From contig JASSKH010000001.1 of NCBI GenBank assembly GCA_031763025.1, positions 15,105,142 to 15,169,141 of the forward strand: 64,000 nucleotides of DNA. The letters are read 5' to 3'. Numbering within the stretch: position 1 is the first letter of the stretch; each line of letters starts with the position of its first letter. Source of the DNA: Macrocystis pyrifera. Its lineage: Eukaryota; Sar; Phaeophyceae; Laminariales; Laminariaceae. The notes beneath the pieces are model-generated. The model had not been told where the DNA came from, ran no database searches, and was given only the letters and a program-made list of their open reading frames with translations. Positions 1 to 62,248 of the stretch are shown one piece after another. The position numbers and the translations under genes were made by a program.

Positions 1-372
1 TCCCTCGCCCCGACCGCCTGAGAAAGTACTCATTCTGACGTAAACTTGTAAAGAGGAATTCGTGTGCCCGATCAGCCAGCTTTTAGTCGAAGCCGGGCCA
101 AGCCGTATACACTACTGCCGCCGTTACTGTCCATTTTAACATGCTTCCACCTCGTGTACAAAAATCCAATAGCTCTACGTAGTCACACGCGAAGCCCGAC
201 GTATTGGGTCTGAGGGACAAAACGCCAAGAAACCCCTCCATTCTCGAGGTGTTTTTCGAGCTTACGTAGTATTAGACTCAATGCGTATGTAGCGTATGAG
301 GGCCTGTGAACACGCAAACAATCTGATTGGGCTCGGGTCATAGCGACGAGTTCCCCCCCCCCACACACACAC
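1..372. other. No gene recognised
   Basis: No exon or repeat could be supported here. A short C-run with CA repeats lies at about 354-372, directly before the retroposon copy that follows. Confidence 0.5.
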
Positions 373-664
373 TTGCTGTCTCTGGAAGTGGCTACACCAG
401 AAATTAAATCAATTCACTGACGCCGTCATCCATCTGGGAGAAAATCCGCCTCAAAGGCGATTCTTAGTAGGATGCAGCCCACCCTTCATGCGACTCGCCC
501 AACACCTCATGGCTCTTCGCGCTTGGCGCAAGCAATGTCTACCTGGTCGGTGAAAACCGGACGTGCTCCGTCCCGGCATTGTAGGGATGAGAGGGTCCAT
601 GGTCATATGACTACGCCCATGCATGATAATGATAATGGGTATGCCCCCCCCCCCCCCCCCCCCC
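373..664 (+). mobile_element. Retroposon R4, copy 1, longest type, poly-C tail
   Basis: The copy runs from the CTGTCTCTGGAAGTGGCTAC end to CATGATAATGGGTATG and is followed by C21 (644-664). It aligns along its whole length with 44915-45184 and, on the other strand, with the shorter copies at 53475-53906. All copies share the 3' end and differ in how far they reach 5', the pattern left by target-primed reverse transcription. It is a SINE or the 3' end of a LINE; no pol III box was certain. It lies against the minus-strand coding-like fragment at 694-960. Confidence 0.7.
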
Positions 665-2684: not shown

Positions 2685-3709
2685 GTGCAACATGACATTT
2701 CATTGAGGCGTGCTACGTATTACGGCGGAGGTGTAGAGCACCTCGCTTTTTCTGAGGCACTTCACTCGATTGTAGTAGCTCTATCGCCCAGCAACAGGCT
2801 TTTGAGATAATAACCAGCGAATTAAGTCTAGACGCGTTCTACGATAGAGGTATTAATAGCACATTTCCGCTGTTTTGCTTTCTGCATGACGGGGTTCCTT
2901 AACCCAAAATCGTCGAAATACCAATCTTGTTTCGAAAAATGACGTTTTGGTTTACTTGGGACTATGGGAGTATTCATCGGGATGCAATTTGATTTTTACT
3001 GAAGTCAGTGTTCGGGTGAGGTATGAAGCTCCTTAAGGTCAAGTGAGGAGCCTCAGAAAATGTAGGGTGAACCTCTATCGTAGAACGCCTCTCAAGCTCG
3101 GTAAGACGCACCCCTGGGCCTGCATGAGCTATCGATACGTGTACAGGTGCCGAACGGAAAAATGCTGTGAAATATATTCACATTAGGGTCGAACGCGGTT
3201 GGGCACAGCTCCTCAGTTGCAATGGCCCATGCAGTGGTCAGGCCAGAAGGGCCTCACAGATCATCGAACAGATCGTCGATTCCCACTTGAAGATCTACAT
3301 ATTTCAGGGCCGATAGATCTACATATTTCAGGGTCGATGGCCGACGGCGAGAACCGACACCCCCACCCGTTTCACACCTTGAACCGATACATTCCGCGAA
3401 CCGTTGCATACCGACTCACATAGTACCCAACCATGCAACCAACGAACGGTACAGAACTGGCAGAAAGCGCTGGACGACCTGGACCGCTCCATCGAAACCC
3501 GTGAAACAGCGCAGGCGTTTTCGCTCCGGGGCCGAGTCCATGCCTGCATGCGCCGCTGGGACGACGCCCTCGACGACTACAGTGCCGCCCTTGCCCTAGA
3601 TCCGAGCAACGCAGCAGCTTTAGAGGGCAGGGCTGAGGCGCTGACACCGTACGTGCCGCTGCCCATGATGAGCGACGAAGATGCGGCTAGAATGGCTGCG
3701 GGGAAATAG
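2588..3709 (+). CDS. TPR-repeat protein, C-terminal two exons (partial gene)
   Basis: Two exons, about 2588-2684 and 3455-3709, join in phase 0 across a 770 bp GT-AG intron and read as tandem tetratricopeptide repeats. These are helical hairpin pairs that act as protein-protein docking surfaces. The first repeat is half visible (GAVYDFGMIIDRAEDP). The second spans the splice junction (YMRRACAFCCGQ then NWQKALDDLDRSIE). The third is canonical (FSLRGRVHACMRRWDDALDD followed by YSAALALDP) with the expected small residue at 8 and Ala, Tyr, Ala and Pro at 20, 24, 27 and 32. A 24-residue tail and a TAG stop follow. The 5' part of the gene was not found. The 5' limit at 2588 follows a CTACAG acceptor but could be 10-15 bases further left. 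Partner and cellular role are unknown. Confidence 0.75.
2834..3088 (+). mobile_element. TIR element R5, copy 1 (255 bp MITE)
   Basis: It is bounded by perfect inverted ends GTTCTACGATAGAGGT / ACCTCTATCGTAGAAC and matches 7510-7762 in inverse orientation through its whole length. There is no coding capacity. It sits in the TPR intron. A target-site duplication could not be fixed because the ends are flanked by GCG/GC bases that may belong to the TIR. Confidence 0.8.
3455..3709 (+). CDS. TPR gene, last exon
   Basis: Starts after a GGTACAG acceptor in phase 0 and ends with TAG at 3707-3709. It encodes 84 residues: the end of one TPR, one complete TPR, and a C-terminal tail ending SDEDAARMAAGK. 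Confidence 0.8.
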   Translation, partial: NWQKALDDLDRSIETRETAQAFSLRGRVHACMRRWDDALDDYSAALALDPSNAAALEGRAEALTPYVPLPMMSDEDAARMAAGK

Positions 3710-15833: not shown

Positions 15834-15858
15834 CCCCCCCCCCCCCCCCCCCCCCCCC
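15834..15858. repeat. C25 homopolymer
   Basis: Uninterrupted run of C between GATGA and ATCGTTTGGGGG. Confidence 0.95.
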
Positions 15859-28000: not shown

Positions 28001-29724
28001 TTGCCGAGGCTGGGGCTGGGGCTGAGGCTGAGGTGACCACCCACGATTCCGGGGTTTCCCCTTCGGAAACGGAGGCGTCTTCGTCGGAGGAGGAGGAGAA
28101 CGGTGGGGGGCGGGGGGAGGGTGGGGGACGAGAAGGGGTGGTGGAGGAGGAGGAGGAGGAGGAGGAGGAGGAGTCAGTCAGCGAGAGTGGGAGGAGGAGG
28201 GGAGTGGGGCGGAGTGGGATGATCGACGGACGATGGCTTCTTTGGAGTTTGACGGGGGGGAGGAGGAGGAGGAGGGGACGCCGGTGCCCGCGGGTTTGAG
28301 GCCGCCAGGGCAGGAGGGCAACGTGCTCTGCGACTGGAGCTTGCGCCACCTAAGGAAGGATAAGGACTTGGGGGTGTTTGCCAGCGGTGCCTTCGGTGCG
28401 TGCATTGTTGGGGGGGAGGGAACGGGTAGGGGGGGGGGGGGCGGGATGGTATGGGTGATAGGGATGGTAAGGGTGGTGGGGGTGGTGATGATGGTGGTGG
28501 TGGTGGTAGTGACAGAAGGAGCAGAAGTGTCTGCAGTAGACTACAGCAGTGGTAGTAGTAGTAATGCTCTGAAGTGCAGCTATTGGTGATGTATAGCAGC
28601 TGTCGTACTACTAGTAGTGGCAGTGGTAGTCACCTGAATCGGGTGGAACCCGTTGTTTTCACCAATCCTTCGAGTAGCTTCGTGGCGCGCCTGGTGTGTG
28701 GTGCTGGAGAAGTGATTTTTTTTCTGCGATAAACCCTGTTACTTTCTTCCTTCTATCCTCTTTTCTCACGTCGTTCAGATGTCTTTCGTTGATGTGTCGT
28801 TATGGACTCTCTGGCTTCGATGGTTTGTGTTCAGCACCGCCGTTGGCTGCTGCGGCTGTCAACATCATCGTTTCCGTTATCGTTGCCGCTTTCCTCGTCG
28901 TGTAACCTGTCAGCTCATCCCCCCCCCCCCTGGCAATATAAAGTAAGGAACATGCCAAAAAAGAGGTTGCCAGCCATAGTTGATAGAGCTGTATGGGAGA
29001 AAGTAACAAAAGGGCGAGCTGGAATAAGGTGGGATGCGTAGTTGAGAATTTATGGAAGGATCTAGGGGGAAACCAAGTAGAGATGACGTCCGCCGGGAAG
29101 TTTGGGAGGTACAAGGCAGAAGTAGAAGAAAGGATAGAAAGAAGGGAAAGGCTGGCGCTAAGAAACAAGGTGGAATCGGAAAAAACACTTAGAGATATAC
29201 GGGGGATTGAGGGAAGGAATAGGGATGAAAACGTATTTGCATAGCCCAATGGACTTCGCGAAAACGCTGAAACTGCGCTTTCGTGTAGGGGGCCTGGACC
29301 TGCCAGAAAGACGAAAGAGGTACACCAGTAGCCGGGAAGAGGAGGAAGTAGACGCACAGGTGTGCCCGTGTGGCAAAGCAATAGAGAGTAGAACTCACAT
29401 AGTAGGAGAATGTGAAATATACAAGGAGGAACGGGATGTGTTAGAAGAGGAGATGAGGAAAATAGACGAATGTGACATGGAGGAGTTTGATACAATGAAC
29501 AGCAGCGAGAAAACGATCGCTATCCTAGGAGATAGATGGTGGCCACAGGAGGCCAAACAGGACGGGGATAAGATAAGTAAAAAGTTTCTATATATTTTAT
29601 GGAAACAACGTAATGAGCGCCCAAATGTTGGAGGTGTCTCTGTTAGGAGTAGGAACGGTGCTCCGTCTCGAAAGGGATGCGTGGTCAATGGTCAAATGAC
29701 TAAGGCAAGCAACAAATTAGTACG

Positions 29725-29777
<53 letters not shown>

Positions 29778-32700
29778 CTGTCGCCGCCTGGTCATACGAC
29801 TACGGCCATGCATGATAATGAGTACACCCCCCCTGTCGCCGCCGCCGTGTGTTCACCCCTCGCTTGCAAAAATGTCTGCTCGCTTATCGGCCTGGCCTCA
29901 CTTGTTTTCCGTGCACCCGTATCCTTGCTGATTTCCGTTTCGTTATCCTGGTCCACATCGGCACGACGGCGAGAGCAGGCAAGGTGGTGGCAGTTCGCAC
30001 GCACAGGAACCAACAGATGGCGGTGAAGATAGTGGAAAAGTCTACCTTATCCCCGGTGAGCTGCTGACGTTTTTGTTTGCCTACTTTTGGGGTGGTCGTC
30101 AAGTACATGCCATGATGCGTACCTGCACACGGCCCCCCCCCCCCCCCCCCGCTTCGACTCTGCCAGTTTTTTTTTTTTTTTTTTAAATCCTCCGGCGGAT
30201 TGGTAAAAATAAAGCTCAAGCTCGCCACATTTCCACGCTCAAAAATTGTCGTGTTTTGTGGACCTTTCAGTGGGTCTAAGCAACAAAATGATACGTACAG
30301 TAGGCTCAGGGTGCTGACGTGCTGACACCCGCGTGTGATGCTGTCCTTCCTGTCTTGTCCTGGGCCGCCTGTGCTGTGCTTGCAAGTAGGCCGCCTTACA
30401 ATACAGCGCAAAACCAAATATTAAATGTGTACCTGGTGCAAGATTTCCCTCCGAAGTGGTACGTAACCACTAGGCGCAATACGACAGTAGCAGGTGTCGT
30501 AAGGTATTGCTTCGAAGCACAGCAGGTATGGAAATGTGCAAACCCAGCTACGCAAAGAAAACCACGGTGGATTAGGTTACTCCTCAAGAGGGTGACGCAA
30601 GAGAAATGCCACTAATGCTTTACTTACATGCTACTTCGAATTCCAGGCATGCACTGTATGTGCCAGGTATACGGTAGGTAGCGAGGAGACTGCCGTACTT
30701 GCGTCCCGCGACGCGGTTCAAAAATGATGTACCAGATATGATGCCATTAATTAAGCAGTCCAGATTGGAACAACAAAAGGCAAGGACGCTCTATTAATAA
30801 GACAGACCAACAATACGGAGCAGCAGCTTCTGAGACTCAGAAGCACGTATAGTCTGCCGGTACGAGTATTTCTGGAGGAGTCGACAAACATTGTACCGGT
30901 TAATTTTTAACAAAGACAACAAAGACACTTATTAAATAACTCGTACTCGTCGTGATGTTGTGAGGGGGACATATAGATATCGTGGTTGCGCGGCTAAGCA
31001 CTTGTTCAGTGTTGCAGGAGACCTGAACTCACAGCTAGAGGTTGGACCCTGCGGGTACCCGCCAAATTTTGGAGCCCGGACCCTACCCTACCCGCCGGGT
31101 AATGCCATTTTGACGACCGGGTACCCGGGTACCCGTTTTTTTTTGCCGGGTACCCGGATACCCGGCCATATTTTTGAAGTTTTTTCTCCAAATTTCAGTG
31201 CCACAAAGAATGCAATTTAAGCGGAGGATAGTGTGCAGTACTCTTCTATGCCGAAACGACGAGTACGAACAGTTTCCATGATGATTGGTTCGATACACAA
31301 GCCGCCTAAACTTTGCCGTGTCGTGTACTACTTCATTGCGCTGGCGTGCAATTTTTTGGTTTGAGTGCGCGAAAGTGTGAAAATATGTACGGTGGGAGCG
31401 ATGGTTGACGGTCTCCCGCTTAGAAGTCTTAGACTGCTGCGAACATTTTTCGACCCAATCAGTACGCGTGGCAGATATCGGAAAGTAGCACTACGTCGTC
31501 AACATGATGATTGACCGTGTGACGCTGAGAATTACAATCCGTTGTATCAAAGTAATGCGGAACTACCGTCGATAACGTATCAACAACCGCCTGTGCTCAA
31601 AAATCGAAGGAATCGTGGACGGATAGAAAAAAAAAACAGGAAACGAGTGCGTGCATGGTTGCCCGCAAAGAAGCGGCTACTCACACCTACACCCCTGAAC
31701 TCAGCAGGGACCAGGGGTCAGCATCACAGAAGCACACTCTGATACGACTATCCACTGCTGCTGCTGTCAGAGCCGGGGCCTGCAGAGTCGTCGCTGTCGT
31801 CGCTGCTGCTGTCTGTATCGCTTTCGAGGGTGCTTTGCACAGGCGAATTGGAACTCTCGGTAGGATTCTCAGAAAGATCGCCCCCCGCCAGCAATTCAGT
31901 TTCCTGAGAGACCGCGTCAGGATCGCTCACCCCTTGGCTCATTGTGCCCAGCTGGTGCCGCGTGACGATACTGCCGTGTGCCGTGGGCGTCCCCTTGGAC
32001 GTTGAATGTAGCTAGTTGGTGGTTTGTATGCTTGGCTTGTGTGAGTGCGTGTTTTGAAAGGGTTTCCTGAAGAAATTGTACGCGCATAATGAACCGGGAA
32101 TACCAATTACCCGCGGGTACCCGAAAACCCGCGGGTACCCGGGTACCCGGTACCCGACGACCCAATTACCCTTCAGGCCCCGATTACCCACGGGTAATTA
32201 GCTCGGACCCTACCCGTCAAACGGGTAGGACCCTGACGGGTATACCCGCCGGGTACCCGGGTATTTGAAATCAGGGTCCTACCTCTAACTACAGTGCAGC
32301 AGTTATTATTAATGGATACATACGGCAGCAAAAGGTTCTCGTACTAGGATCGTATGAAGATTTTCTGCAACCCAAATTCACGTGAAAGCACCTATTCAAC
32401 TACCAGGTATAGTATTTGTAGCAAAACGTATGACTTGTCGCCGTACTGCTACCGGGGAATCCTCGAAGCAGCTGAACAGTTCATGGGCAGGTGGCACGAG
32501 GCTGAGGCAAAGCTGAGTAGACAGCGCCGTGCATCCGCTGCAGGTAGTGTTAGAGGGAATGGGGGGGGAGGGGTAACAGCAGGAGGGGTAGAGGGAACAC
32601 CGTACAAGTGTATAGGGGCAGGGGGGGGAACAGGAGGAGTAGAAGGGAAACCGCGGTAGAAGAGAGTAGCAGAGAGACCGCAGATAGGGTAGCAAGGTAC

Positions 32701-35394: not shown

Positions 35395-35461
<67 letters not shown>

Positions 35462-43183: not shown

Positions 43184-45494
43184 GGCAGATGGAGGGCTAA
43201 ACTCGAAATTTCGACATTTGCGACATTTTCGAAAGTTTTGATACGAAATCCAACACTTGAGATGACGACGTTTTTAACAGTAGTACATCTGCCACTCGAA
43301 TGCGTTTTCCGCACCTTGGTGTAGCTCTACGATTCTCGCGTGTTGCGCGTTTGAGAGTGCGCGTGTCGCGCGCAGTCGGGCGTTTTTTTTGTGTTCCTTC
43401 TGCACGTTCGGGGGTTGGCGTAGCTTGGCGCCGGATGATGGGTTTGCCGGGAAGAGCTAGCTGTGAGTCGGAGCGGAAGTTCGATCGATGTCATGTTGTG
43501 GAATGCTGGACAGAAGCCGATTTTTACCGCTTTTGGTTTGATTGTGTGAACGGGCTCGCTCGAGTTTCGAGTGAAATCGAACGATAGCTATATTTTATTT
43601 CGGCCGGTGAAACGCGTTGTGGATAGTTGTCTTGTCTTGTCTTTCTTTTTTTTCTTGTCTTGCCCTGCCCTGTGTTGCGTTGTATTCTATGGTACTATAT
43701 TGCCTTATCTTGTCTCCCTCTCCTGTTCTCCCTTGGTTTCGTCTCATCTCAAATCATATGTGCGTGTCTTGGAACAGCCGTACCTTGCTCCCGAGTTAGT
43801 CCGTGACCTTCCCTACGACGCTGGGGTAGACCTATGGGCGATCGGAGTGGTCTCCTACGAACTCCTTCATGGCTACACACCATTCAGGTGATGAGCGCCA
43901 ACGCATCAGGAGGCGGGGGGGGGGGGGTAGGGAGGGTATGTCGGGGCGCTCTCGGTGTACGCGTCTAATCTCTCTGACGCCGAGTTGATCAGGGTAGAGA
44001 TGTTCTGAAAAAAAAAAGGTCGGCGGTGTGACAATAAGAGGTCCGGTGGTGATGTCGTCCAAGAAAGCATCCCTGTCTCCCAGAGCCTATGCCCCCCTTC
44101 CTCGTACCCTTCCCTCCCCTCCCTTTCCTGATCAAACCCTTAAGGGGTACGTACTGCCTTTTGAATTCCTGCGCTGCTATACACAATACCTCAGCAGTAG
44201 CGGTCGCGTTGCGCTATGATGGACACTTTATTTTTGTCTGTCCTTTTGGGACTGCGCACTCCCGCTTCGGGCACTGACTACCTGAAATTTGAGGTGCGGT
44301 TCTAAAAGGGTAAAAAAGCGAGACGGTCCGATTTTTTTTTTTTTTTTTTGTTTCTATAGCTTCCACCACCTCACCAATTACGGGGAGGAGCATTTTGCGG
44401 AGGCGAAAGCCACGATGGACTCGAAATCCTCCATTCCCCCCTATGTTTTCGAGCCAAAGTCTGTGCTGATTGCTATGATTTGTTCCCCTTTAATAGTTGA
44501 TGACGGTTACGGCTATTCAGCACTAGTGCGTAGCGAGAGCTATGCCCCCTGTCTTCCGATTTACCGTACGTACGTGTACTCGTAGTACTCCAAGTACTCG
44601 AGTAGACCCCCCCCCCCCATTATGCTCCCGCGTCATTTCTCGCCTCCCCACTTTTCAACCTCCCCACGCCCCCCCCCCTGTCTCTGGGTTGGCGTCGGTT
44701 GGCGACAACGCTGTAAAACACGCCTTTAACCGCGTGAGCTAGACAGCCAGGGTACCGTTTTTTTTTTTTTTTTTTTGGCGCTTGCCACGACTGGCGGTCA
44801 AGTTAGATCATTTTTGTGCGGGGTGCAGAACCTTCACTCCGCACAAGGGGGATGATCATATCACGTAGTGTGTACATGGTGAGGCACCCACGAGGCAGTT
44901 ACATGGTAAACCCATTGCTGTCTCCGGAAGTGGCTACACCGGAAACTAAATCAATACATTGATGCTGTCATCCATATGCAAGAAATCCACCTCTAAAGCG
45001 GTTCTTCGTGGGATGCAGCTCACCCTTCATGTGACTCGCCGGACACCTCACGGCGCTTCGCGCTTGGTACAAGCAATGTCTGCCTGGTCGCTGAAAACCC
45101 GACGAGCTTCGTCCCGGCATTGTGGGGATGCGAGGGTCTATGGCCATATGACTACGACCATGCACGATAATGAGTGCATCCCCCGCCCACCCCCCACCTC
45201 TCGACGTACCCCGCTTTCACCGTACCCCACGTACCCAATTTCTGTTTCTCGTCCTTTTTGCTTGTGCCCGTTCGCACGCCTGGTTGCTTCTGGTGATGTT
45301 GCTGGTTGCTGTTACTGCCGCCGCCGCTGCTGTTGCTGGCCGTGTTGTTGTTGTTGTTGTTGTGGTTGCTGTGGTTGTTGCTGCTGCTGCCCCTGCCGCT
45401 GATGCTGCTGCCCCTGCTGCTGCTGCTGCTGCCCCTGCCGCTGATGCTGCTGCCCCTGCTGCTGCTGCTGCTGCCCCTGCCGCTGCTGCTGCCT

Positions 45495-48211: not shown

Positions 48212-48246
<35 letters not shown>

Positions 48247-51429: not shown

Positions 51430-51489
<60 letters not shown>
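51430..51489. repeat. G60 homopolymer
   Basis: Sixty uninterrupted G, preceded by GGGCCGGGGGGGTT. The longest single-base run in the window. Confidence 0.95.
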
Positions 51490-53474: not shown

Positions 53475-53577
53475 GGGGGGGGTGTACTCATTATAATGCA
53501 TGGCCGTAGGCTTATGGCCATAGACCCTCGCATGCCTACACAGCACGTCGGGTTTTCACCGACCAGGTAAGCATTGG
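53475..53577 (-). mobile_element. Retroposon R4, truncated copy
   Basis: On minus it starts within GTCGGTGAAAACC and ends TGCATTATAATGAGTACACC followed by a C-run. Confidence 0.65.
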
Positions 53578-53811
53578 GGGGGGGGGGGGGGGGTGGTACT
53601 CGATATCATGCATGGCCGTAGTCGTCTGAGCATAGACCCTCGCATCCCTACAATGCCGGGACGGAACACATCAGGTTTTCACCGACCAGGCAGACATTGC
53701 TTGCACCAAGCGCGAAGCACCGTGAGGTGTTGGCGAGTCTCTAGAACGGTGAGCTGCACCCTACTAAGAACCGCTTGTGAGACGGACTTGCATATGGATG
53801 ACAGCTTCGGC
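53576..53811 (-). mobile_element. Retroposon R4, mid-length copy with C18 tail
   Basis: On minus it begins at GCTGTCATCCATATGC and ends CATGATATCGAGTACCA plus C18 (53576-53593). It lacks the first ~45 bases of the long copies. Confidence 0.7.
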
Positions 53812-53906
53812 GGGGGGGGGGGGGGGGGTCATGCATGGCGGTAGTCGTATGGTTATAGACCCTCGCATCCCTACAACGCCGGGACGGGGCACGTCGGGTT
53901 TTAAGG
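53812..53906 (-). mobile_element. Retroposon R4, short copy with C17 tail
   Basis: On minus it begins near AAAACCCGACGTGCCCCG and ends CGCCATGCATGA plus C-run (53812-53828). Confidence 0.65.
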
Positions 53907-57215: not shown

Positions 57216-60200
57216 CTGTACATACATTACGTTTCGACGAGGACGGCAGCAACAACGATGTCGATATAATGCACCGCTATTCGAACAAATACAAACAAGG
57301 GACAGCAGCAGCGATGACGACACGGCAACGAAGGCATAGCACAACGGCCACGAGGACGAAAACGAAGGCAACGCACCAGGGAGTTGTGACAAAAAGGGGG
57401 GGGGGGGGGGGGGGGTACTACGGCAACCAATAAGCAATTAAACTTTTTAAAAAAAAGCAATTATTTTTTTTTTTTTAAATCTCGGGATTTGTACGGTGGT
57501 ATATAAAAGCGCCACCAATGCGTGCACCGCTTGTGCAGTACCAGGCATCCGCCCAAGGCGACAACGACAGGTCGGGTCCTTCGCACAGAGCAGCATGCCG
57601 TGCCAACACGCAAGATTTGCACACACCCCTCGCCGTGATTTTCACGCCGATTGTGCGGAGGGTGCACACGCCGAGCCATGTGGCTCTGGAAACACCTCAA
57701 CGAGAAAATCTCAACGCCGCCCCTTTTCGTTGTGTGTGCCCCCACCCCTATATATGATGGTCTACAGTAGGATAAACTCGTTTCGGGAATTCGTCCCTGG
57801 CGATGTGCTATCTTTCGTGTTACCAGGTACCGGTACCCGGTAAATAATATGTACGGTGTACAGCGTAGTACTGGTGTAATTGGTGCGTTATAGCTCTTTG
57901 GGCGGTAACATAAGGACGGTTTAGAGTTTCATATGAAGACCAACCGGTCCTCATATTTATGTCCTCTAATAGGTGCTATTAATAAATCAAGGTTTCTAAA
58001 AACATTACGGTATGACATATATCATAGGGTAATGCTATTTGCGACACCGGTGTCGTAATTTCTTATTTGCGACACGGTGTCGCAAATAAGCGGCTTATTT
58101 GCGACACAGCGTCACGTTCGCGGCACATACCTCAGATTGGCTCCGCACCGCCAGGGATGTGTTGGCATGGTGCAGGGCCATCATTGAAGCTATCGCACGG
58201 TCGAAACGGGCCAGGACTCGAGGAGATATCTGGCATCCTGGTGCACCCGCAAAACGTTCAGATCGGTGTCGCAAATAAGCCTTATTTGCGACACGCGTGT
58301 CGCACATGAGCCTTATTTGCGACACGCGTGTCGCAAATACCGTATTTGCGACACCGCAACGTGGTTGCCGCACACGCTCCGGATCGGCAAAGCACTACCA
58401 GTAGAGTCTCAGCATGAGCTCGGGCTACCATTGAGGCCATAGTGTAGCCAAAACGGGCCAGTACTCGAGGAGATATGGGGTATCCTGGTACATCCCGCAG
58501 AATCTTCTGGCTCCTGTCGCAAATAAAAATAAGCCTTATTCGCGACACGCGTGTCGCAAATACCGTATTCGCAACACCGCGCTGTGGTTGCTGCACACGC
58601 TCTGGATCGGCAAAGCGCTACCAGTAGAGCATGGTGTAGGGCTACCATTGAAGCCATCGTGTAGCCAAAACGGGCCAGTACTCGAGGAGATATGGGGTAT
58701 CCTGGTACAACCCGCAGAATCTTCTGGGTGGTGTCGCAAATAAGGCTTATTTGCGACACGCGTGTCACAAATACCGTATTTGCGACACCGCGCTGTAGTT
58801 GCCGCACACGCTCCGGGTCGGCAACGAACTACCATTAGAGTCTCTGCATGGTGTCGGGCTACCATTGAAGCTATCGTGTAGCCAAAACGGGCCAGTACTC
58901 GAGGAGATATGGGGTATCCTAGTACACGGTTAGCATATTCAACGTGGCTCTTCTACTACTACTGCTGCTGTGCTACATACAACAGAGTAAAACACACAAA
59001 CACGATAAGCTAGGAGTGCGAAAACTATATGCATAACCCATCAGACTGCCTCCCCGACCAGGGCATCCAAAATAATCGGGAATTGACTGCGTAGCTGGAC
59101 GAGGAGACTACGCGTGATTTGAGTGGGGCAGGTCAGTGCGCACAATCTGCTGGAGTTGCGGGATGTTGGTGAGTCTTCCATAATGGTTCGGGTTCTCTCC
59201 GCAAAACTTCTGCCTAAACTTATGGAAAAACCTCCAACCCGCGCACCAGTGTGCACAGCATACAACAGCGCGGTGGGAACTCTACACAATGCTGCAGGGC
59301 ATCGAAGGATACCTTCCAAGCAGCCTACGAACTCTACGACCTTCTACACGCGTTACACATACGAGTACCGATTTCTTCCTCACACCATGAACAAGGCGGC
59401 TAACCCCTCTGCCGCTTACATTGAACTCATGCAGTCCGCTGTGAGTTTCTGTTGTATGTTTCACAACCGTTAGAGAAAAACATCGGGAATCCGTTTACAA
59501 ACTACGTGCTACGCATGTGCCCTAAGTTTGAGTATTGATATTAATAGCATATGTCAATACTACAGCAGTGCGGATACTATGTACTGCTGTTGGTGCAACA
59601 ACAAGCAGGATTATGTGTCGGAAAGAACGCGTGCAACAAATGCATAGCTATAGGTAAGCTGTTGTAGCATGGCCGCCCTCTGTGCATCTATGGGGTGTGT
59701 TCGTTGCCTTAATTAATCCGACAAAAACTGTGCACAGCGTTTCGAAAGGTTGTTCAGTCCTGTGCGGCAAAACGATAGGCGTTGGCAAACGCCTGGGGGA
59801 TGGGCGCTTTTACACGGCTGTTCAAGGGCAATTAAACAACCACATTGATGGGTGATGATGGTTGCACGGAACGAACGCCGATTTTACTGCGGTTCTATGA
59901 TACACTGCTGTAGATGACATACACCCACCTATTTCGATAGCATCCACAGACAAGTACAAACACCGTATACAGAGCGCAGCGTGCACAAACTTCTGTGCCC
60001 TTCACTTGTGCCCATGTGAATAGACACATAAACAGAGCACCCGGTGCTTTGAACGATACCAGCGCTCTCAATTATAGTACGTACGACTTATTAGAACACG
60101 GCGCGGCAATATAATCAAGATAATTTCAAATCCATTGATTCACGATGACGTGGCTAACGATCGACGTACTCGTGGAAACATGCTATACAGTGGTATAGTT

Positions 60201-62248
60201 CGAGCTCATGCTATAAATAAGCCACCGTGGTTGTCCTGGTCTAAACGAGGCGCGCGCGACGAACGTCGTGCGATGTCGTAAAAATGCGGCTTTACGACAC
60301 CAGTCTGACTATTCTGACAGTGCACCAGGATGAACAGGATACCGCACACAGCAGTATCTACTACTGTAATGGCCCGTTCTGGATACACGCGAAATAAGGC
60401 TTATTTGCGACATCAGCCTGGGTGTACTAGGATACCTTATATCTCCTCGAGTACTGGCCCGTTTAGGCTACACGATGGCTTCAATGGTAGCCCTACACCA
60501 TGCTGAGACTCTACTGGTAGTACGTCGCTGATCCGGAGCGTGTGCGGCAACCACGTCGCGGTGTCGCAAATACGGTATTTACGACAACCATAAGGTTCTG
60601 CGGGTGTTGTACCAGGATACCCCATATCTCCTCGAGTACTGGCCCGTTTTGGCTACACGATGGCCTCAATGGTAGCCCTAGCTGAGACTCTACTGGTAGT
60701 GCTTTGCCGATCCGGAGCCTGTGCGGCAACCACGTCGCGGTGTCGCAAATACGGTAGTTGCGACACCAATCTGAACGTTTTGCGGATGCACCAAGAGGCC
60801 AGATATCTCCTCGAGTCCTGGCCCGTTACGGCAATGCGATAGCTTCAATGATGGCCCTGCACCATGCCAACACATCCCTGGTGGTGTGGAGCCAATCTGA
60901 GGTATGTGCCGCGAACGTGACGCGGTGTCGCAATAAGCCGCTTATTTGCGACACCGTGTCGCAAATAAGAAATTACGACACCGCTGTCGCAAATAGCATT
61001 ACCCTATATTATATCATACAGCAGTATCAATAATGGTGCTTACGCCTGGCTCCAGCTTCGACAAAATGCTTTGATAAGTCAGCAGTTAGTGTTGAGAGAC
61101 TATTAATCGAGACCTCTTCACCTGCATCTTCACTCCGAGAAATCTCCAGGGTTCTAAATTCGCAGGGTTTCAATATGCATGGTTATTTCAAGAGTGTTTG
61201 AAGTTTGAAGGCAAGTGTGCTTCAACCATTGTTTGACCAAGCTCACCAAATACGTACGCACGTACGAGAGAAGAGGCAGCGAATCCACATGCCTGATGCG
61301 GCACACCAGGACGACACACTCCACGCAAGCAAGGGGTACTCACGTATCGTCGTATCACATGTACGTACAGATATACCAGGTGCGAATAACTATTTGATAC
61401 TCGGGCATCTCGTACCTGTTGGTACTGCAGTACTCGTACCACAACCTGAAGCACTTGTGTTCGTGGCGGAGAAGGTGCCGGACGAGGTTTGGTTGGTTTC
61501 AAGAAGGCATTAACTGGTTCTGTGGAAGGCAGAGACTCCTGGCGGCAGACTCGAGGGCGGCTGCGTTATTTTCGTTGCTCGCGATTGGCGGGATTTAGGT
61601 TACTACTTGGGCCCCAGGCGCTCTCAAGGCCGCAGCGGAGGCTGCTGTTGCTGTTAGGGTATTAACGTGCTGACCAATGGGCATGACAAGGTGATTTACA
61701 GGCCTATTACACCACAACTACAGTAGTACACCACCCGACGTACACCCGTGCAGTTAGCCGGGGAGCGGAGCTAGGGCACCACCCAAATAGACACTTTGGC
61801 GGGTCCTCATCTCCTCTCTCCTCACTCCGCATCACGACATGTCCGAAAATGTAAGGACCAATTTTGTATTCATATTAATACTCCAACGATTCTTACACTT
61901 TCGGACGTATTAGGCATGTGCCACAAAACGTCATCTGAGCCCTTCGTGCTCTGGTGCACAGGATTGCTTGTATTGGGTCTTCCCGCCTGCAAGTTGCCGG
62001 GGCAGTGGTAGCACGGCATAGGCGCGTCTGTATATCTGTCTGTGTGTCTGTCTGTGTGCTTGGCTGCCGGCTACTGCTGCTAGTCTGTGGCTGCTTACCT
62101 TATCGTGGCAAGAGGCACATAGCCCAGTGTTTGCCATGCCCAAAATCTTGGCCGTCTTTTGAGACTTAGGGTTGTGTCGGAAGGCGAAGCTGTTCTGGTG
62201 TGCCGGCTTCCTCGTGCGGGTGTCTCCCGCTCCTTTCCGCGTGCTCAT
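56922..62248 (-). CDS. C9orf85/DUF2039-family zinc-ribbon protein, 147 aa
   Basis: Two exons on the minus strand, 62099-62248 and 56922-57215, join in phase 0. The N-terminus MSTRKGAGDTRTRKPAHQNS followed by FAFRHNPKS matches the family start (human C9orf85 begins MSSQKGN...HQNTFSF). Exon 2 starts VEWRKKYRKYRPLRQP, again a family hallmark. Four CxxC pairs (CASC at about 44-47, CNDC 69-72, CTPC 85-88, CPWC 95-98) predict two bound zinc ions. The family's molecular role is not established; it is conserved in eukaryotes and presumed nuclear or cytosolic. The tail is acidic (EGEGEEGEEEGEG) and ends EEEKEGRR. The length is close to the 179 aa human protein. The 4.9 kb intron carries a foldback element. 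Confidence 0.88.
57396..57415. repeat. G20 run (poly-C on minus after GTAGTAC)
   Basis: On minus the run follows GGTTGCCGTAGTAC, resembling the junctions of the C-tailed retroposons. Confidence 0.85.
57908..57962. repeat. Palindromic repeat, R12-like
   Basis: ACATAAGGACGGTTT and its inverse GGTCCTCATATTTATGT flank a short centre. Confidence 0.5.
58024..61007. mobile_element. Foldback-type DNA element, ~3 kb
   Basis: Long inverted arms begin ATAGGGTAATGCTATTTGCG on both ends. Each arm consists of diverged ~200-250 bp units: four on the left (58024-58930), three on the right (60390-61007). Units contain TTATTTGCGACACGCGTGTC, a GCCGCACACGCTCCGGATCG block and ACTCGAGGAGATATGGGGTA. The middle (58930-60390) has no recognised transposase, so the element looks non-autonomous. 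No clear target duplication was found. It lies wholly within the DUF2039 intron. Confidence 0.7.
61834..61912. repeat. Palindromic repeat R12, copy
   Basis: CATGTCCGAAAATGTAAGGA and TTCTTACACTTTCGGACGT are inverted around a CATATTAATACTCC centre. Confidence 0.6.
62099..62248 (-). CDS. DUF2039 gene exon 1
   Basis: Exactly 50 codons from ATG to CHDK, donor GTAAGC. Carries the first CxxC. Confidence 0.88.

Follow-up and report, generated by a model that had tools for sequence, protein, structure and literature searches.

A probable LINE and SINE-like pair with poly-C tails in the kelp Macrocystis pyrifera

Introduction

The tails of LINEs and SINEs are mostly A-rich or built of short tandem words, and in LINEs of the L1 type the tail pairs with the primer at a homopolymer.

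The nearest known system to the elements presented here, as compared by description only, is that of the brown alga Ectocarpus, in which RTEX-N1_Ec32 is approximately 600 bp long, is present in more than 6000 copies, has a 5' part of unknown origin and shares its 3' end with the RTE-X LINEs RTEX-1_Ec32 and RTEX-2_Ec32, as given in the text of PMC12477816. Its authors consider it a possible SINE but place it among the LINEs, as a Pol III promoter is demanded of a SINE in some classifications; the LINEs of Ectocarpus are listed in the same text as CRE, RTE, RTE-X or unknown (PMC12477816). In the “stringent” SINE/LINE pairs, e.g., the tobacco TS SINE with an RTE LINE, the machinery presumably comes from the LINE, and the 3' repeats that the text of PMC3747384 gives for plant and green-algal LINEs are (A)n, TTG, TTGATG, CATA, CA, CAA, TAA, ATT, CTATTT, CCAT, ACAATG and CTTGTAA.

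In this study, we analysed a window of 64,000 nucleotides of Macrocystis pyrifera (the whole stretch of DNA under analysis; contig JASSKH010000001.1, positions 15,105,142 to 15,169,141) together with the assembled genome. A first-pass annotation, made from the letters of the window, had proposed six copies of a retroposon family with a constant 3' end, variable 5' truncation and a poly-C tail. What we describe is a real and abundant pair of a LINE and a SINE-like element that most likely moves by target-primed reverse transcription. New with respect to the annotation are the full length of the element of approximately 520 nt, the copy of a partner LINE in the window, and the preference for C-tracts as landing sites.

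Results and Discussion

SINE-like copies in the window

All six copies were recovered by blastn in the 64-kb window, three on the plus and three on the minus strand, with the 44915 copy as the query returning the other five at E values from 1.7e-8 to 4.7e-85. The copies are thus real, while two of the starting coordinates shift: the copy placed at 44915 reaches back to 44685 when it is compared with the full-length consensus, and the one placed at 29777 begins at 29789 and consists of 38 nt plus C7. The C tails of up to C21 were also confirmed on the window copies, except that the tail of the 44685 copy is C-rich and interrupted. The features are as follows.

353..362, plus strand: C10 tract 10 nt upstream of the 373 copy, likely its target tract
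373..643, plus strand: SINE-like copy, 5'-truncated at consensus nt 256 (consensus 256-515, 92.3%)
644..664, plus strand: C21 tail of the 373 copy
29778..29788, plus strand: 5' target-site duplication CTGTCGCCGCC of the 29789 copy (11/11)
29789..29826, plus strand: 38-nt SINE-like copy (consensus 483-520), inserted at the border of the C tail of the LINE
29827..29833, plus strand: C7 tail of the 29789 copy, between the element and the 3' duplication
29833..29843, plus strand: 3' target-site duplication of the 29789 copy, its first C common to the tail
44685..45178, plus strand: longest SINE-like copy of the window (consensus 28-520, 93.1%)
45180..45198, plus strand: C-rich tail of the 44685 copy, interrupted
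53829..53902, minus strand: SINE-like copy A of a chain (consensus 436-509)
53812..53828, minus strand: C17 tail of copy A
53596..53808, minus strand: SINE-like copy B of the chain (consensus 302-519)
53576..53593, minus strand: C18 tail of copy B, possibly sharing its final C with the start of copy C
53483..53576, minus strand: SINE-like copy C of the chain (consensus 416-520, 80%)
53475..53482, minus strand: C8 tail of copy C

The duplication around the 29789 copy amounts to 10-11 bp, and since C7 lies inside it, C7 belongs to the element. The minus-strand trio forms one head-to-tail chain, A-C17-B-C18-C-C8, running from 53902 to 53475, in which copy A (53902-53829) lacks the last ~11 nt of the common 3' end; identity to the consensus is 89% for A and B and 80% for C. 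Elsewhere in the window, 58298-58926 and 60423-60827 are tandem repeats of 217 and 179 bp, the former including TGTCGCAAATA-type inverted motifs.

Full-length element and its class

The searched genome comprised 537,376,219 bp in 223 contigs, and the element search gave 5044 first-look candidates, of which 40 were scored, leading to 30 loci. According to the flanks of the genomic loci, the element reaches ~250 nt further upstream than 44915. Its majority consensus spans 520 nt, from TATATTATATACCTGG to GAGTACA, with an internal T-run of ~20. The sample consisted of 93 SINE-like copies, namely 29 query-selected and 64 free ones (i.e., not picked by the query search), the latter including the six window copies, one of which is the query; four hits without the 3' end were excluded, as were loci L001 and L031, which overlap the window.

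Among the 64 free copies, 11 start at consensus positions 1-29, none at 30-171 and 53 across 172-486. The proposed check of scattered 5' ends over a fixed 3' end therefore came out in favour (53/64 at 172-486 of 520), whereas the claim that every copy begins at a different internal point holds for the six of the window and not for the wider sample, where 11/64 copies have complete or almost complete length, with starts in the first 29 nt.

The element is short (520 nt), non-autonomous and has a LINE-derived 3' end, as SINEs do, and it probably depends on the partner LINE. The label “SINE” does not strictly apply, because no Pol III promoter was found: A and B boxes occur only with a mismatch, and a T-run of ~20 lies inside the element. 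No tRNA was found, no Rfam match at the gathering threshold occurs in the window, and three loci gave only two sub-threshold Rfam matches, both outside the element; a tRNA- or 5S-derived head was rejected on the lack of a tRNA and of a gathering match. An origin of the 5' part from the LINE 5' UTR was likewise rejected, with no match in ~1.4 kb of the LINE 5' region apart from the T-run, and the LINE body gave no match to it either. No relatives were found in the viral contig, phage and genome contig collections.

Two further observations concern the family. In loci L005, L010, L012, L028, L041, L042 and L061, a variant end of the element is followed by TCTCTCCTATCGAGTAC or something close to it and then by a C-run, which could represent a subfamily with a duplicated 3' end. 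On contig C125 (~1517366-1610869), 3' words of the element are found, several of them on one strand at a spacing of ~11 kb, which may reflect a large tandem array that carries the element.

Partner LINE and the common 3' end

The first-pass annotation had suggested looking for a LINE with the same 3' end, and such a LINE is present in the window itself, as a decayed copy with a C tail of its own:

28919..28929, plus strand: C tract immediately preceding the start of the truncated LINE, likely its target tract
28930..29724, plus strand: partner LINE 3' end, 5'-truncated and frame-broken, with a C-terminal coding piece followed by the 3' UTR
29725..29776, plus strand: C52 tail of the window LINE

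When the last 90 nt of this LINE were aligned, anchored at the end, with four SINE-like ends, scores of 35-50 were obtained against shuffle maxima of 18-30 (0/2000 shuffles in each case). All four random window segments that reached the LINE score lay inside element copies, and the best of 4812 random segments outside elements scored 22 versus 47. SINE-like positions 466-519 and LINE positions 3477-3526 are 81.5% identical (E 2.4e-7, with the next best match at E 2.7); the likeness is strongest over the last ~54 nt, the anchored similarity extends over ~90 nt, and only the 3' end is common to the two elements. This end folds no better than its shuffles (z -1.1, +0.9 and +0.3), and a 3' fold standing out from shuffles was rejected on these values.

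The C-terminal protein piece of the window LINE, in which a CPCG-H-C motif can be seen by eye, gave 18,184 first-look candidates; the 150 that were scored all had 91-99% amino acid identity, the window's own copy included. A LINE 5' piece gave 341 candidates, the two numbers being only roughly comparable, as one comes from a DNA search and the other from a protein search. Reverse transcriptase is present in the family (RVT_1, 1.2e-30 in L061 and 1.7e-21 in L063), and so is an endonuclease (Exo_endo_phos in L008, 2.5e-6, 27.9 bits versus a cut-off of 24.5), with the two matches sitting in different LINE copies. The L008 copy can be aligned to L062, whose endonuclease piece has no Exo_endo_phos Pfam match and was recognised by eye only. 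The nearest solved structures include R2 (1.5e-19) and L1 ORF2p (8.9e-13), and all the LINE copies that were read are frame-broken or truncated.

The LINE sample contained 39 copies, i.e., 51 merged hits minus 9 running off the locus and 3 without the 3' end, and both a fixed 3' end and 5' truncation were found. Upstream of the match in L065-L069, the LINE 5' region extends over at least 1.4 kb and holds tandem repeats of roughly 125 nt, possibly a repeated promoter. As for the clade, RTE-X is suspected only from the LINE types that the text of PMC12477816 gives for Ectocarpus.

Poly-C tails

The 19-base 3' word of the SINE-like element, CATGCATGATAATGAGTAC, occurs exactly 1723 times forward and 1640 times reverse in the genome (3363 in total), and its backward reading does not occur (0). 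CCCCC follows within 3 nt in 1305/1723 forward sites (76%), and AAAAA in 1/1723 (4 sites in all). For the LINE 3' word GGCAAGCAACAAATGAGTAC, C5 follows 1822 of 2203 forward occurrences (83%), so that 24% of the SINE-like and 17% of the LINE words are without C5. The pattern counts are for one strand only, because on the other strand a variable-gap site is probably counted several times. Among the sampled SINE-like copies, 77/93 have a C-run of at least 4 following no more than 8 nt from the expected end (median 9, longest 34), and 29 of the 30 LINE ends that were fetched, counting the one in the window, stop at the same point and continue with at least 7 C, the exception being L050 with CCCTCCC.

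The C tails announced for the window are thereby extended to the genome, and copies without them, which would have refuted the annotation, are not the rule in the exact-word counts (1305/1723 forward words with at least 5 C versus 1/1723 with 5 A). The use of C rather than A as tail letter and target is unusual. In the running text of the one open library searched (with one of the queries being too loose to carry weight), no poly-C-tailed LINE or SINE was found; two papers that came up were set aside, as the passages of PMC3184123 concern read trimming and those of PMC9942856 the end of a DNA transposon.

Landing sites and target-site duplications

At least 5 C are found within 10 nt upstream of the start in 48/93 SINE-like and 21/39 LINE copies, compared with 1.7% in a control of 8000 positions outside elements; such a run is lacking at approximately half of the 5' junctions in the sample. 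Exact full-length 5' ends, counted on the reverse strand, are preceded by CCCC within 3 nt in 43/60 cases, and 16 of 20 sampled copies that start at 1-8 are preceded by a C-run. Since truncated copies adjoin C-runs too, it is unlikely that those C are the 5' end of the RNA.

If a G-ended nick in a C-tract primes on the C tail, the C-run is part of the duplicated target, and any x bases that separate the 5' C-run from the element are expected to appear again right after the tail. This was evaluated on 101 insertions having both a 5' C-run and a C tail, of which 61 have a gap of 1-16 nt, while 34 without a gap and 6 with a gap above 16 nt were left out. A full gap match was obtained in 15/61 (shuffle mean 6.43), and for gaps of at least 3 nt in 9/61 (shuffle mean 1.47), values that 0/2000 shuffles reach in either case; the test is post hoc, as it was framed after the flanks of the same copies had been read. 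The best matches are L052 (GTACCAGG, 8/8), L044 (AGGTACC, 7/7), L032 (TCCCT) and L058 (TCCTC), and the signal comes mostly from the LINE (8/17 versus 7/44 SINE-like). The target-site duplications that belong to target-primed reverse transcription were thus found by this post-hoc test. In a plain flank test (n = 91), a score of at least 7 was reached by 10 copies versus 4.3 expected, at least 8 by 5 versus 2.06, and at least 11 by 1 versus 0.51, and most copies have no duplication outside the C-runs. The duplications that the first-pass annotation had proposed to look for are therefore there, although most of them emerge only if the C-run is taken as part of the duplicated target, and the plain test is weak apart from the 11 bp at 29789. 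Its reading as target-primed reverse transcription gains support from the 5' scatter, the fixed 3' end, the C tails and the 3' end of the LINE.

Chains and long C-tracts

Of the 132 copies whose 5' end can be seen, 43 begin at most 70 nt downstream of the 3' end of another copy on the same strand, versus 0/132 for the antisense equivalent; as the loci are enriched for elements, this is not a genome rate, and the antisense control serves as the comparison. The 43 chained pairs consist of 22 SINE-like after SINE-like, 15 SINE-like after LINE, 5 LINE after SINE-like and 1 LINE after LINE, with at least 4 C between the members in 40 of them and no C4 in three.

Such chains could also arise if the reverse transcriptase moves to the C tail or the 3' end of another RNA, so that the chain and its 5' C-runs are made in one event and no copy is nested in another. 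Locus L064/L008 (minus strand) carries a SINE-like copy, C9, another SINE-like copy and then a truncated LINE joined without C at the common AC, likely a template-jump chimera judging from its junction, and this suggests that template jumping also occurs. As a general account we regard it as unlikely. Truncated copies without a neighbour adjoin C-runs as well, and the duplications consisting of a C-run plus gap (L052, L044, L032 and L058) fit nicking in a C-tract. Furthermore, the 38 nt copy has an 11 bp duplication of its own downstream of the C tail of the LINE, suggesting that it arrived separately and at a later time, and divergence differs along the 53.5 kb chain (89% identity in A and B versus 80% in C).

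A second alternative places the tails in the DNA and not in the RNA: the elements would land in C-tracts that were already there, and the C-run at the 3' end would be target sequence. Many copies are indeed flanked by C-runs on both sides, and the CCCC before 43/60 exact full-length 5' ends would also be expected. We consider this improbable given that C7 falls within the duplication at 29789, that C follows 76-83% of the exact genome words and 77/93 copies and precedes only 48/93 5' junctions, and that 19 C (L052) and 46 C (L044) precede the repeated bases.

Taken together, the window and the loci (289,453 nt, enriched for elements) contain 83 C/G runs of at least 20 versus 9 A/T runs, and in the window alone 7 versus 1. 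No element end lies upstream of six of the ten window C-runs of at least 15, and the pair accordingly does not explain all C-runs. C/G runs of 18-60 without an upstream element end are located at 15834-15858, 30133-30150, 35428-35460, 48213-48246, 51430-51489 and 57396-57415, and these six are candidates for tail-only insertions or plain homopolymers. For two of them, the tail of another abundant family was considered and seems unlikely: the flank of the 51430 tract is single-copy, and the 15834 tract has 13 weak matches besides itself that are not anchored at the end. Another repeat, a stretch of ~111 bp that is 78% alike at ~47.9-48.0 kb and 35.8-35.9 kb, is situated upstream of two long C-runs and not at their edge.

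Duplication at the DNA level or satellite amplification, with the C-runs being slippage-prone microsatellites or long-read homopolymer errors, is the least probable explanation: the six of ten window C-runs without an element end, some C125 matches ~11 kb apart and tail lengths that may be unreliable in a long-read assembly are in its favour, but the 5' breakpoints vary per copy over a fixed 3' end, the flanks differ between copies, chaining is 43 same-strand versus 0 antisense, and A tails are nearly absent.

Proposed mechanism

We return to a LINE and a dependent SINE-like retroposon, both ending in poly-C, that are copied by target-primed reverse transcription with C-tracts favoured as targets, and we assign this reading a probability of roughly 0.85. 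The common 3' end, C tails, truncation, C-run junctions, partial duplications, chains and the enzymes of the LINE family can be read directly from the DNA, and the steps between them might be the following. The LINE enzyme would bind the common 3' end in either RNA, and its endonuclease would nick the G-rich strand of a C-tract, upon which the G-ended 3' OH could pair with the C tail and prime the cDNA. Slippage on C may lengthen the tail, and a cut in the second strand a few to ~12 bases downstream would yield a duplication that comprises the C-run and these few bases. As every insertion would plant a further C-tract, tails may become landing pads for later copies, a likely consequence being a genome rich in long C-tracts.

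On balance, we also lean towards a broader proposal, of which we are considerably less sure: the tail-primer code of a LINE lineage may have switched from A/T to C/G. This lineage would combine an endonuclease for C-tracts with a poly-C RNA tail, and each insertion would serve as a landing site for the LINE and its SINE-like parasite, producing same-strand chains and seeding long C-tracts, some of them as tail-only insertions.

A C-tailed and C-targeting pair provides a test of whether the letter of the tail changes in evolution along with the preference of the endonuclease, and it may account for many of the long C-tracts in the kelp genome. The feedback in which a tail becomes a target is open to test in population genomes.

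Comparison with known systems

The kelp element resembles RTEX-N1_Ec32, as described in the text of PMC12477816, in belonging to a brown alga, in being short and non-autonomous (~600 bp there and ~520 here), in carrying the 3' end of an abundant LINE and in having thousands of copies, and the 5' part is of unknown origin in both elements. The poly-C tail and the C-tract target of the kelp element may set the two apart, as neither is mentioned for RTEX-N1_Ec32 in the text of PMC12477816.

With the stringent SINE/LINE pairs, the kelp pair has in common a shared 3' end of ~50-100 nt plus a shared simple tail, as outlined in the text of PMC3747384. In contrast to the SINEs of those pairs, a Pol III head was not found in the kelp element, and its (C)n tail is absent from the plant and green-algal LINE repeats given in the text of Ohshima 2013 (PMC3747384).

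The LINE is similar to APE-type LINEs such as L1, as these are portrayed in the text of PMC2881922, in that it combines endonuclease with reverse transcriptase, has a Cys/His motif near the C terminus, and is found with 5' truncation and target-site duplications. The proposed tail-primer pairing at a homopolymer would be a further likeness. Unlike L1, its tail and target consist of C rather than A, and it has a specific 3' end that is common to its SINE-like partner.
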